64,000 nt of DNA from Larkinella soli (lineage in GTDB: Bacteria; Bacteroidota; Bacteroidia; Cytophagales; Spirosomataceae). The stretch is taken from NCBI RefSeq assembly GCF_003703975.1, contig NZ_QTJY01000014.1, positions 62,001 to 126,000 of the forward strand, read 5' to 3'. The position numbers were made by a program, and so were the translations under genes. The notes beneath the pieces are model-generated. The model was given only the letters and a program-made list of their open reading frames with translations, did not search any database and was not told the DNA's origin. Below are positions 6,180 to 9,800 of the stretch, piece after piece (position 1 is the stretch's first letter; every line of letters starts with the position of its first letter).

Positions 6180-6810
6180 ATGAAAGCCATAACGGTACTC
6201 AACTGGTCGCTCATCGGGCTTTACGCCGTTCTGCTGACGTACGGGTGGCTGACGCTGGACCGGTCCGGGACGGATGCCGCCGGAAAGGGCATGGCGGTCG
6301 CTTACCTGCTGGCGGTTTTGACCGCCCCGCTCGGCATCGGTCTGTTTCAGGGGGTTTCGGGTATCTTCTCCCTCCGGCAAAGCCGAAGAAGGCCGGCTTG
6401 ACGGTACGTTTTACTTCCCCGATGCACCCCGGCAGGAAGCCGCAGCCGCCATTCTGGCGGGCGATACGGCCCGGCTTGAAAAACGGCTGCTGCCCCTTCG
6501 GCCCCGGCTCAACGAAAGCGGCAACGAACCCATCACCCTGCTCGATTTTGCCGCCCTACAGGCCGTCCGGACCGGAAACAAGGCTCCGGCCATGGCGTGT
6601 CTGGCGCTTCTGGTGGAGGCCGGGGCCACCCTGAAAACGGCCGACACGCTTCACACGGATACGCACGCGCTCATCGCCCGGGAGTGTTCGGCCCCGCTGC
6701 CGGAACTCATCGACCGCCGGGCCGAACAGTTTGCCGCCGAAGGCGATACCCCCGCCGGATTTCCGTCCCTGAAAATTTTTTTGCGGAAACAGCCACCGCA
6801 AAACCCCTGA
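6180..6810 (+). pseudogene. Frameshifted membrane-anchored ankyrin-repeat protein
   Basis: Two reading frames seem to belong to one broken gene. Frame one (ATG 6180 to stop 6401) encodes 73 residues with two hydrophobic segments. A second frame is open from 6322 to the stop at 6808-6810 but has no ATG until 6592, and encodes ankyrin-like sequence: AAILAGDTARLEKRLL, then LNESGNEPITLLDFAAL and CLALLVEAGATL. The N-terminal frame ends in basic residues after the second helix, while the ankyrin part starts without an initiator. The simplest reading is a +1/-2 shift, perhaps with a small deletion, between about 6322 and 6401. A sequencing error would look the same. Confidence 0.55.
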
Positions 6811-6816
6811 AAAACA

Positions 6817-6849
6817 GAAAACCAACCGGCTTCAGCACAGTTGGTTTTC
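6817..6849 (-). terminator. Hairpin terminator shared by converging units
   Basis: A 10-bp perfect stem, 6817-6826 (GAAAACCAAC) with 6840-6849, and a 13-base loop. On the minus strand the T-rich arm is followed by CTGTTTTT. This places it 19 bases after the stop of the riboswitch-linked 28-codon ORF. It can also stop the ankyrin transcript from the other side. Confidence 0.7.
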
Positions 6850-6868
6850 CCTCCGGTGAACAGGATGA

Positions 6869-6955
6869 TTAGCGAGCCGGCCGGCAGACCACAACGGGTA
6901 CGAGATGCCAGTCCTGATCGGGATCGCAGCGCTGATAAGATGCTTTGTTGATCAT
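6869..6955 (-). CDS. 28-residue ORF directly downstream of a SAM-I riboswitch
   Basis: A short ORF of 28 codons (ATG at 6953-6955, TAA at 6869-6871) starting 11 bases after the 3' arm of the riboswitch P1 helix. The predicted peptide begins MINKASYQRC, has D-P-D-Q-D-W-H in the middle, a hydrophobic VPVVV run and a second Cys at position 24, and ends in PAR. It has no signal peptide. A terminator follows and no other minus-strand gene lies behind it, so this ORF is the only apparent coding target of the riboswitch. I do not recognise the peptide. It could be a real small protein, a leader remnant, or non-coding. Confidence 0.5.
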   Translation of the reverse strand: MINKASYQRCDPDQDWHLVPVVVCRPAR

Positions 6956-6966
6956 GGTTGTTGTTA

Positions 6967-7067
6967 ATTTATAGGTCCTAAAATAGTTTTAGGCCGGTTA
7001 GCACTAACACCTTGCGGTAAGTTGCTAAGGGTTCACAGAGCCGGTCTCTCCCCCTTTCGGTATAAAT
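6967..7067 (-). promoter_or_regulatory. SAM-I (S-box) riboswitch
   Basis: Read on the minus strand, all SAM-I elements are present. P1 is ATTTATA (7067-7061) with TATAAAT (6973-6967). P2 is AAGGG/CCCTT (7056-7052 with 7031-7027) plus AGAG/CTCT, separated by GG on one side and GTGAA on the other, as in the kink-turn. Its loop ACCGG can pair with CCGG at 6997-6994 (pseudoknot). The conserved AGCAAC follows at 7026-7021. P3 is ACC-GCAA-GGT, then GTGCTAA in the P3/P4 joining region, and P4 is CCTAAAA/TTTTAGG (6993-6987 with 6983-6977). The ligand, S-adenosylmethionine, is inferred from family identity. Confidence 0.88.
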
Positions 7068-7107
7068 CACAACTACTCACAGAAGAGAAGTAATTGAGAT
7101 AACGATG

Positions 7108-7139
7108 CAAAAATGAAGCACGAAATTCTTATTTCCAAA
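7108..7139 (-). promoter_or_regulatory. Bacteroidota promoter for the riboswitch transcript
   Basis: Minus strand: -33 element TTTG (7139-7136), a 20-base spacer, then CATTTTTG (7115-7108), one mismatch from the TAnnTTTG -7 consensus. Spacing is ideal. Transcription would start near 7100, about 35 bases before the riboswitch P1 helix. Confidence 0.65.
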
Positions 7140-7181
7140 TTTAATCTATATTATTTATAGAATAAATATTTTATTACCCCA

Positions 7182-7239: not shown

Positions 7240-8394
7240 ATGCAACGATTGCCCACCATCGGCTCGAAACTACCGGCCGTCGGTACCACCATCTTCACGG
7301 TCATGTCGCGGCTGGCCGCCGAGCACGACGCGATCAACCTTTCACAGGGCTTTCCCGGCTTCGACTGTTCACCCCGGCTTCAGGAACAGGTAGTGAAATA
7401 CCTGCGGGGCGGCTATAACCAGTATGCGCCGATGCCGGGCGTTCCGGCCCTGCGGGAAGTGCTGGGCCGGAAAACCGCCGACCTCTACGGCGTCGCCTAC
7501 GACCCTGATACCGGGATCACGATCACCTCCGGCGCCACCGAGGCCCTGTTTGCGGCCATCACGGCGGTAGTCCGGCCGGGCGATGAGGTCATCCTGTTCG
7601 AACCGGCCTACGACAGCTATGCCCCGGCCGTCGAACTGAACGGCGGGGTGCCGGTCTACGTCACCCTGACCCCGCCGGAGTATGCCGTCGACTGGGCGCA
7701 GGTGGCCGGCCGGATCACCGACAAAACCCGGCTGATGGTCGTCAATACCCCGCATAACCCCACCGGGCGCGTCTGGACGCAGGACGACCTCGACCGGCTG
7801 GCCGCCCTCGTCCGCGACCGCGACATCATGCTGGTGGCCGACGAGGTCTACGAACACATTACCTTCGACGGTCGCCCGCACATCTCCCTGATGACGCACC
7901 CTACTCTGCGGGAGAGAACCTTCGTCTGCGGCTCCTTCGGCAAGACCTTTCACATTACGGGCTGGAAAGTGGGCTACTGCCTCGCTCCCCCGGAGCTGAC
8001 GGTCGAGTTCCGCAAAGTTCACCAGTTCCTGACGTTCAGCACCATCACCCCGGTGCAGCACGCCCTGGCCGACTACCTCCGCGAACCGGAACATTACTTA
8101 TCGCTGCCGGCCTTCTATGAACGGAAGCGGAATTTGTTTCTGGAAAGTATCGGGGCCTCGCGGTTTCGGTTCGCGCCGACGCAGGGGACGTTTTTTCAGA
8201 ACGTTTCCTACGCCGATATCACCGACGGGTCCGACTACGAACTGGCGATCCGGCTGACGAAGGAAATCGGCGTGGCTTCCATCCCGGTTTCGGTATTTTA
8301 CCACGGGCAGAACGACTACCGCATCCTGCGTTTCTGCTTCGCTAAAGACGACGACATCCTGAAACGGGCCGGTGAGCGGCTCAGCAAACTATAA
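7240..8394 (+). CDS. Methionine-type aminotransferase (class I, YbdL-like)
   Basis: A 384-residue PLP-dependent fold-type I aminotransferase. The N-terminus has the INLSQGFPGFDCSP signature of the YbdL / kynurenine aminotransferase group. Further visible are the TSGATEALFAAI cofactor-phosphate region, NTPHNPTGR, VADEVYEHITFDG, and the PLP lysine K235 in GSFGKTFHITGWK. YbdL-type enzymes prefer methionine and aromatic amino acids, converting them to 2-oxo acids. It is the first gene of a plus-strand run with gaps of 4 to 52 bases. A SAM riboswitch lies divergently upstream, a fitting methionine link, but that riboswitch is on the other strand and does not control this gene. Confidence 0.88.
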   Translation: MQRLPTIGSKLPAVGTTIFTVMSRLAAEHDAINLSQGFPGFDCSPRLQEQVVKYLRGGYNQYAPMPGVPALREVLGRKTADLYGVAYDPDTGITITSGATEALFAAITAVVRPGDEVILFEPAYDSYAPAVELNGGVPVYVTLTPPEYAVDWAQVAGRITDKTRLMVVNTPHNPTGRVWTQDDLDRLAALVRDRDIMLVADEVYEHITFDGRPHISLMTHPTLRERTFVCGSFGKTFHITGWKVGYCLAPPELTVEFRKVHQFLTFSTITPVQHALADYLREPEHYLSLPAFYERKRNLFLESIGASRFRFAPTQGTFFQNVSYADITDGSDYELAIRLTKEIGVASIPVSVFYHGQNDYRILRFCFAKDDDILKRAGERLSKL

Positions 8395-8398
8395 TTCT

Positions 8399-8941
8399 AT
8401 GCCACGCATTCAGCCCCTCCGCCGGGACCAGGCTCCGCCCGAGGTTCAGGCCGCCTACGACCGGCACGTTGCCGACTATCCGGGCAGCCGCATCACCAAC
8501 ATGAAAGCCACGCTGGGCCGCTCGCTGCCGGCGTTCCTGATCTATATGCAGTGGTATCCGCTGTATGAGGAGGTGAAAACCATCGTCGGCCGACGCCCGG
8601 CCTATCTCTTCGCCCACGCCATCTCACTCGGGTCGAACTGCCCGCTCTGCACGACCTTCTTCCGGCGCATCATCATCGACAACGGCGAGAAGCCCGAAGA
8701 CCTTCAGGTGACGGAACCCGAACAGCTCCTGCTCGATTTCGGAAGCCACATGGCCCTGAACCGGGGCGAGGTGCCCGACGGCCTGTTCGAACGCATCCGG
8801 AAGGATTACACCGACGAGCAGATCGTGGTGCTGGTGGCCTTCGCCGGCCAGATGATCGCCACCAATATCTTCAACAATGCCCTCGAAGTAGAAATCGACG
8901 AGTATCTGCAGCCGTATCTGGCGAAGGAGATGGAGAGTTAA
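8399..8941 (+). CDS. AhpD / carboxymuconolactone-decarboxylase-like protein
   Basis: A 180-residue protein from the ATG at 8399, four bases after the aminotransferase stop. An upstream in-frame start would overlap that gene and is not preferred. The central HAISLGSNCPLCTTFFRR carries the CxxC of AhpD-like thiol peroxidases and decarboxylases, followed by a helix-rich C-terminus (VAFAGQMIATNIFNNALEVEIDEYL) typical of the fold. Such proteins reduce peroxides or act on small carboxylates; the substrate is not readable. Tight spacing implies cotranscription with the aminotransferase and the SDR. Confidence 0.7.
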   Translation: MPRIQPLRRDQAPPEVQAAYDRHVADYPGSRITNMKATLGRSLPAFLIYMQWYPLYEEVKTIVGRRPAYLFAHAISLGSNCPLCTTFFRRIIIDNGEKPEDLQVTEPEQLLLDFGSHMALNRGEVPDGLFERIRKDYTDEQIVVLVAFAGQMIATNIFNNALEVEIDEYLQPYLAKEMES

Positions 8942-8944
8942 AGG

Positions 8945-8976
8945 GTTGGGGTGTTTGGGAGTTGGAGAGTTGAGGA
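8945..8976. repeat. Degenerate 8-bp-period repeat (four units)
   Basis: Four consecutive octamers, GTTGGGGT, GTTTGGGA, GTTGGAGA and GTTGAGGA, fill the gap between the AhpD-like gene and the SDR. The same period is seen in the larger array at 57949-58104. Confidence 0.6.
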
Positions 8977-8993
8977 ATTTAATCTGATTGGTT

Positions 8994-9800
8994 ATGACGA
9001 ACGATCTGAAAAACAAGGTGGCTTTCATTACGGGGGCAGCTCACGGACAGGGGCGGGCGGTGGCGCTGGCTCTGGCCGGGGAGGGAGTGCATATCGTCGC
9101 CTTCGATATTGCCAAACCGCTCTCCTACCCAGGCTATACCCTCGGCTCGGAAACGGAACTGGATTCGCTCCGCCGGGAATGCGAAGCGCGAAACGTCCGC
9201 TGCCTGACGGCCCAGGGCGACGTTCGCCGGGACGAGGACATCCGCCGGGCGGTCGAAGCGGCCACGGCGGAGTTCGGCACCATCGACATTTTGTTCAACA
9301 ATGCCGGCATCTGCGCCTACGGCCTCGTCCATGAACTGCCGGAGGAGGAATGGGACGCCATGCTCGACATCAACCTGAAAGGGGCCTGGCTGGTGGCCCG
9401 GCGCATCATTCCGCTCATGATGGCGCAGCAATCGGGCGTCATCATCAACAATTCCTCCATTGCGGGGCTGCGCGGCATGAACCGGCTCAGCCACTATGCC
9501 GCGTCGAAATGGGGGCTGGTCGGCCTGACCAAGTCCTGGGCCATCGAACTGGCGCCTTATAACATCCGGGTCAATTCCATCCATCCCACCGGCGTCAACA
9601 CCCCGATGAACGACGGACTGGCGGCCCTCGAAGGCGCTACCCCACAGGAAATTGCCGAACGCTCGGCCGGGAATCTGCTGCCGGTGCCCTGGGTGGAGCC
9701 GGAAGACGTCTCGGCCATGGTCCTGTTTCTGGCGTCCGACAAGGCCCGCTATGTGACAGGGTCGCAGTTCGTGCTGGATGCCGGCCTGCTGACCCGCTAA
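8994..9800 (+). CDS. Short-chain dehydrogenase/reductase (SDR), mycofactocin-type subfamily look
   Basis: A 268-residue classical SDR. The frame is open from a TTG at 8988, but ATG 8994 (MTNDLKNK) is preferred. Features: the cofactor motif TGAAHGQGRAVA (variant of TGxxxGxG), the NAGI motif in LFNNAGICAYG, catalytic Ser in NNSSIAGLRG, and Y-x-x-x-K in HYAASKWG. The GQGR motif, the extra loop after the second strand and NSIHPTGVNTPMN resemble mycofactocin-coupled SDRs (TIGR03971). No mycofactocin gene is in the window, so cofactor use stays open. Likely substrate: an alcohol or 2-hydroxy acid from amino acid breakdown. Confidence 0.82.
   Translation: MTNDLKNKVAFITGAAHGQGRAVALALAGEGVHIVAFDIAKPLSYPGYTLGSETELDSLRRECEARNVRCLTAQGDVRRDEDIRRAVEAATAEFGTIDILFNNAGICAYGLVHELPEEEWDAMLDINLKGAWLVARRIIPLMMAQQSGVIINNSSIAGLRGMNRLSHYAASKWGLVGLTKSWAIELAPYNIRVNSIHPTGVNTPMNDGLAALEGATPQEIAERSAGNLLPVPWVEPEDVSAMVLFLASDKARYVTGSQFVLDAGLLTR

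Follow-up and report, generated by a model that had tools for sequence, protein, structure and literature searches.

Features of the locus

The window, which is the whole stretch of 64,000 nucleotides analysed, carries on its minus strand a compact unit of promoter, SAM-I riboswitch aptamer, 28-codon open reading frame (ORF) and terminator-like hairpin (Table 1). A preliminary description of this DNA had proposed a near-consensus Bacteroidota promoter with 20-base spacing, and this was borne out. The downstream element, CATTTTTG, is the Bacteroidota TAnnTTTG box with one mismatch, and the promoter block, including the upstream TTTG, is kept in the alignment of all ten homologous loci. The CTATA-N5-TATAG repeat ahead of it also occurs at the other nine loci with at most one arm base changed (CTACA), in flanks that differ. 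The 28-codon ORF (ATG at 6955, stop at 6869) was likewise as described, but it begins 10 nt after the end of P1 at 6966 and not 11. A strict consensus terminator scan of the window locus gave no match and so missed the terminator that had been proposed; a hairpin-plus-tail comparison was used instead. By this comparison the window hairpin comprises 35 nt (-19.2 kcal/mol) followed by the tail GTTTTTCAG, and at each of the ten loci an equivalent terminator-like hairpin, also followed by a T-rich tail, lies 13-22 nt beyond the stop (-19 to -26 kcal/mol).

Table 1. Coordinates of the orphan SAM-I unit and of its divergent neighbour in the window.
Feature	Position	Strand	Basis or remark
Candidate operator, inverted repeat CTATAAATAATATAG (CTATA-N5-TATAG)	7146-7160	-	Directly upstream of the -33 box
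Bacteroidota-type promoter: TTTG (7139-7136), 20 bases, CATTTTTG (7115-7108)	7108-7139	-	Coordinates and conservation
5' hairpin CAATTACT...AGTAGTTG, before the aptamer	7070-7096	-	Folding of the window transcript
SAM-I riboswitch aptamer, P1-P4	6966-7068	-	RF00162, 73.9 bits, E = 1.9e-15
P1-to-start spacer AACAACAACC, 10 nt, A-rich, initiation region	6956-6965	-	Sequence
28-codon ORF MINKASYQRCDPDQDWHLVPVVVCRPAR, core RCDPDQDWHL	6869-6955	-	Conservation across ten genomes; dN/dS 0.004 in the core
Hairpin resembling an intrinsic terminator (6850-6816), with T-rich tail	6807-6850	-	18 nt past the ORF stop
Methionine aminotransferase-type PLP enzyme, divergent neighbour	7240-8394	+	NF006569, 589 bits; outside the unit

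The 3' arm of the 5' hairpin is predicted to form an alternative extension of P1 (GUUGU:ACAAC) up to the start-codon region. The spacer sequence differs in other Larkinella, and thus this extension is not conserved throughout. A leader similar to CAATTACT...AGTAGTTG is also present in related cassettes, and a search of viral contigs did not find the hairpin sequence.

A plus-strand gene (6180-6810) converges on the unit and is split over two frames near 6390 by a frameshift or a sequencing error. It had been called a broken ankyrin gene facing the unit; its orientation and its broken frame are correct, but it has no match to any Pfam model, not even to ankyrin. The methionine aminotransferase gene on the other side is not adjacent to the unit in other genomes by neighbourhood comparison. 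YciW-like and SDR genes follow it (window 8372-9800). Since similar genes lie near a thioredoxin-like cassette of L. humicola (G091, L179), they may belong to a sulfur-related cluster.

The aptamer and its predicted control of translation

The complete SAM-I aptamer that had been read from the minus strand was recovered by the RF00162 search (cmscan), which matched the model over its full length (positions 1-108) and scored 73.9 bits, where the gathering score is 44.4. The alignment to RF00162 has a mean posterior accuracy of 0.98 and two non-standard pairs, and it gives a four-way junction of P1-P4 with the conserved core, which is almost unchanging across the ten loci. This was the sole Rfam match within the 64-kb window, where the RF01704 aptamer was not found. 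Judged by its sequence, the orphan aptamer is an ordinary member of the known SAM-I class.

Direct translation attenuation has been assigned to SAM-I riboswitches with a start codon no more than 15 nt from the aptamer end (Barrick and Breaker 2007; PMC2258182). The 10-nt distance from P1 to the AUG lies inside this limit, in agreement with the earlier suggestion that so short a distance fits translational control. In the predicted SAM-free ensemble of the window transcript, bases -18 to -1 are unpaired once codons 10-20 are included. When the fold is constrained to the aptamer, P1 is predicted to be closed and the ACAAC before the AUG to be paired, which costs 2.6 to 6.6 kcal/mol in the model. 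Judging by SAM-I affinities, SAM binding could supply this energy. The terminator is distinct from P1 and does not form an alternative structure of it. Most simply, these predicted structures would make the unit OFF with SAM and ON without SAM, and repression of the ORF by SAM is very likely. A pairing between aptamer and ORF proposed by RNAalifold was set aside, as the aptamer has no variation to support it.

Conservation of the unit across genomes

Promoter, SAM-I aptamer, an ORF of 22-29 codons and terminator hairpin occur together in all nine Larkinella genomes and in one genome of another genus of the same family (G048), a family which we take to be Spirosomataceae. At each of the ten loci the ORF opens 10 nt past P1 and contains RCDPDQDWHL. 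The stem of the terminator shows compensatory changes among the other loci, its sequence differing while its pairing is kept.

The unit sits in three unrelated neighbourhoods. In most other Larkinella a galactokinase/SusD-type region lies upstream of it and a membrane-protein gene converges on it from downstream, in the window it has the divergent methionine aminotransferase gene and the frame-shifted converging gene, and in G048 an M28-type peptidase gene lies behind the hairpin. A co-directional gene before the hairpin is present in none of them. Thus, the unit is not a leader tied to a single gene, and it is probably a self-contained, monocistronic micropeptide gene. The central claim of the preliminary description is therefore left standing, with RF00162 matched, the short ORF conserved and a met gene downstream absent.

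The genome that contains the window (6.9 Mb; window on contig 13) carries SAM-I riboswitches at three sites: metH is preceded by one and a metY-type gene by another, and the third is the orphan. Exactly the same three are found in all nine Larkinella genomes. The metY-type locus of the window genome carries the short ORF MNYIRCCMPPGAAEL... in addition. An exact search of the core pattern against GTDB r220 (84,980 species) gave 16 matches, seven of which were Larkinella with the full unit; these are genomes already in our comparison set and add no evidence. By inspection, the other matches were frames in unrelated ORFs, and convincing matches were limited to Larkinella. A wider pattern (the aptamer subtype with an ATG behind it) was matched only by genomes of the same family among 395 genomes of the phylum and 390 of the order. 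By these pattern searches the distribution of the unit is narrow.

Selection on the peptide

A short ORF this near to P1 arises in about 15% of shuffled downstream sequences. Thus, its observation in a single sequence is weak, and it is the conservation across species that places it beyond chance. The conservation and the Ka/Ks ratio of the short ORF had been proposed as a check, and both support it. The core RCDPDQDWHL shows zero amino-acid differences in ten genomes, although nine of its ten codons vary synonymously, all changes falling at third positions except for one Leu first position. The core dN/dS is about 0.004, with pS near saturation (Nei-Gojobori, ten genomes). The ratio is 0.054 for codons 9-22 in eight Larkinella and reaches 0.45 in the N-terminal codons 2-8; as a control, the two other frames of the same DNA give 4.2 and 1.4. 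In addition, the window ORF is 18 nt longer than the 22-codon ORFs, which is a multiple of three. The low dN/dS, the frame controls and this length difference together indicate that translation of the ORF is maintained and that the sequence of the peptide matters. Since the amino acids are invariant while synonymous sites are near saturation, selection appears to keep the peptide, not the RNA, in the ORF. Comparative evidence of this kind makes it almost certain that the ORF is genuinely coding and under selection.

The 28-residue peptide matched no model in Pfam or NCBIfam. Across the loci the orphan peptide contains one or two separated Cys codons, with no run of Cys control codons.

Related SAM-I cassettes with cysteine leader ORFs

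To place the orphan among its relatives, 95 SAM-I loci of the same family, a non-random sample, were classified. An ORF of 8-60 codons opens 4-12 nt after P1 at 51 of these 95 loci. Cysteine is present in 49 of the 51 short ORFs, and Cys makes up 9.3% of residues versus 3.1% in shuffled controls. Some of the short-ORF cassettes precede metY, nifS-like, yceI or thioredoxin-like genes. For example, the metY-leader ORFs have RCCMP-like sequences in common, and the yceI-leader ORFs contain KCCPEDKWRS and KCCPNDKWRS. It is likely, from this comparison of loci, that a SAM-I riboswitch followed by a cysteine leader ORF is a family-wide device, and the orphan may be a member of it that turned into a gene in its own right. 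The range of genes suggests a SAM-controlled sulfur/redox regulon in the family that would extend beyond methionine synthesis.

Similarity of the orphan peptide to the other leader peptides was assessed in nine comparisons with uncorrected p values, and only p 0.001 is firm. This value was obtained for MSTSLFQYRCAPDQDQSVALRCCQATGQLG, the leader of a thioredoxin-like gene in L. humicola. The yceI-leader peptides gave p of about 0.015, the nifS-leader was marginal (p 0.07), and similarity to the metY-leader peptides was not significant (p about 0.4).

Several other observations were made on these cassettes. The metY leaders of Larkinella and a related genus (L002, L045-L052, L082-L097) have an RCCMP-like ORF of 13-33 codons about 10 nt after P1, and in many of them the stop of the short ORF is followed, after roughly 25 nt, by a hairpin whose loop is GGGAG (AACCGGGAG-GG). 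In other genera of the family (L134, L136-L143), SAM-I lies before nifS-like cysteine desulfurase, yceI and thioredoxin-like genes. In L. humicola (G091 contig 16; L164, L171), the inverted repeat, the promoter and the 5' hairpin of the orphan recur at two thioredoxin-like genes. The aptamer-like RNA in their cassettes is shortened and matches no Rfam family, and their Cys-rich ORFs are MPTHSILSRCEPAQARPLALRCCQTTGQRG and MSTSLFQYRCAPDQDQSVALRCCQATGQLG. Also, a SusC/TonB gene of the window genome (L175 1500-1650; contig 24 near 37261) shares this 5' hairpin and has a stem like P1, GGATTTATAG/CTATAAATTT, without the SAM-I core, and the Cys-rich ORF MFTLRISCCPDTFSCTCDPFGALCCCW follows.

Alternative explanations

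These cassettes allow the orphan to be read as a cysteine leader ORF without a gene, in which charged tRNA-Cys would be sensed by ribosome stalling and the effect would be exerted in cis, on termination, stability or release of a 3' RNA, the peptide itself being inert in trans. The frequency of short, cysteine-containing ORFs near P1 in the family agrees with this, and so does the position of related cassettes with Cys-rich ORFs before metY, nifS-like, yceI, thioredoxin-like and SusC genes. Leader peptides of this cysteine type have been described from Actinobacteria (PMC1262725) and before cysS in Rhodobacterales (PMC8632094), and a hairpin 13-22 nt after a stop codon resembles an attenuator terminator. 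However, a control peptide requires its control codons only, whereas the orphan has just one or two Cys codons and the majority of its conserved positions (D, P, D, Q, D, W, H, L) hold other residues. In addition, none of the three neighbourhoods offers a gene ahead of the hairpin that could be regulated, and we regard this explanation as unlikely.

The preliminary description had offered three alternatives of its own, and peptide-level selection in ten genomes favours the first, a SAM-controlled small protein. Its second, a small RNA whose 3' part acts in trans, would have the transcript of about 290 nt base-pair with targets in the manner of SreA/SreB of Listeria; a free-standing transcript with SAM-I and terminator is what such an RNA would look like, and SreA is a precedent (PMC8079631). 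The aptamer segments themselves could pair with targets, but the RNA beyond promoter, aptamer and ORF is not conserved and the terminator is kept by pairing only. Invariant amino acids with near-saturated synonymous sites in the core are the opposite of an RNA-level constraint, and the free variation at synonymous sites and after the stop speaks against a base-pairing function of the 3' part, so that this explanation is quite improbable. The third, that a met or sulfur operon was lost and left the unit behind without a function, draws on the related SAM-I/short-ORF cassettes that precede sulfur genes, from which it follows that an ancestor may have had a downstream gene. A remnant would hardly be kept in ten of ten genomes at three positions, with its own promoter, aptamer and terminator intact and dN/dS near zero, and we give this origin very little credence.

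Proposed mechanism and comparison with known systems

The reading that we favour, with a probability of about 0.6, is that the unit is a SAM-I-controlled monocistronic gene for a peptide of 22-29 residues, which is repressed via P1 and acts in trans. We infer from the sequence that the aptamer binds SAM and that the ORF is translated. From the promoter to the start codon, the SAM-I aptamer is the one control element recognised. With abundant SAM, the aptamer would close P1 10 nt before the AUG and ribosome loading would be blocked; with scarce SAM, P1 would open and the peptide would be made. The peptide, through its core RCDPDQDWHL, would then act in trans; the likeliest target is a protein of methionine/cysteine metabolism, though this is a guess. 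Such action is proposed by analogy to the small inactivating factors under cyanobacterial glutamine riboswitches, and we consider action in trans probable. Some points weigh against the favoured reading. The related ORFs look like cis-acting cysteine leaders before sulfur/redox genes, so the orphan could act through its own translation only, and its likeness to the related leader peptides is modest except in one case. The narrow distribution of the unit also counts against this reading, and the fold energies are model values. A more specific version, in which a SAM-repressed micropeptide is made at low SAM to adjust in trans an enzyme, a transporter or the ribosome in sulfur metabolism and is a survivor of the family-wide device of SAM-I and Cys leader ORF, is tentative and somewhat doubtful.

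The closest precedent is the glutamine-II Downstream-peptide motif (RF01704) together with the gifB/IF17 glutamine riboswitch, where a metabolite riboswitch controls a small conserved protein, as is proposed here. The short ORF of the Downstream-peptide motif was recognised by synonymous changes and by indels in multiples of three (PMC2864571), and the Larkinella ORF was recognised in the same way. IF17 regulates glutamine synthetase (PMC6316151). In contrast to the glutamine riboswitches, the orphan is a SAM-I riboswitch, with another ligand and in another phylum, and it is presumed to be OFF with SAM whereas they are ON with glutamine. In addition, the Larkinella peptide, at 22-29 amino acids, is unrelated to DUF4278/IF17. 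Thus, the likeness to the RF01704 system is one of function (a small protein under purifying selection) and not of membership.

With the SAM-I riboswitches of direct translation attenuation (PMC2258182) the orphan shares the start codon within 15 nt of P1 and the Rfam family, but its product would be a stand-alone micropeptide and not that of a methionine or sulfur gene. With the Cys leader ORFs of Actinobacteria cys/cbs genes (PMC1262725) and of Rhodobacterales cysS (uORFC-8-2; PMC8632094) it has in common a short, Cys-containing ORF, and its sister cassettes precede sulfur/redox genes. It differs from them in having no downstream gene, few Cys codons, conserved non-Cys residues and SAM-I in front. 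In SreA/SreB of Listeria monocytogenes (PMC8079631) a SAM riboswitch likewise yields a short terminated RNA; however, SreA also precedes an operon and acts as an RNA, whereas the orphan has no operon and its dominant constraint is coding. In Sinorhizobium, the translation of metA is controlled from a distance by a SAM-II riboswitch, which also yields sRNAs (PMC9373788).

Significance

The novelty of the orphan unit is what SAM-I controls, a stand-alone conserved micropeptide. A search of the open-access literature, with most subscription papers outside its scope, yielded no match for a Bacteroidetes SAM riboswitch that is combined with a small ORF or a leader peptide. If the proposed reading is true, this would be, as far as the literature searched shows, the first SAM-I riboswitch with a regulatory micropeptide as its dedicated product. 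Orphan riboswitches without an obvious gene are easily dismissed or read as small RNAs; here, the comparison of genomes identifies the regulated gene as an ORF of 22-29 codons, a size that annotation pipelines would probably overlook. With the metabolite known, the role of the peptide is directly testable by methionine/SAM starvation. Lastly, no description of a leader switch with the two inputs SAM and cysteine was found for Bacteroidota in the literature searched, and the sister cassettes of this family suggest that SAM sensing and the reading of cysteine codons are combined in one leader, which would make it a two-input sulfur switch.
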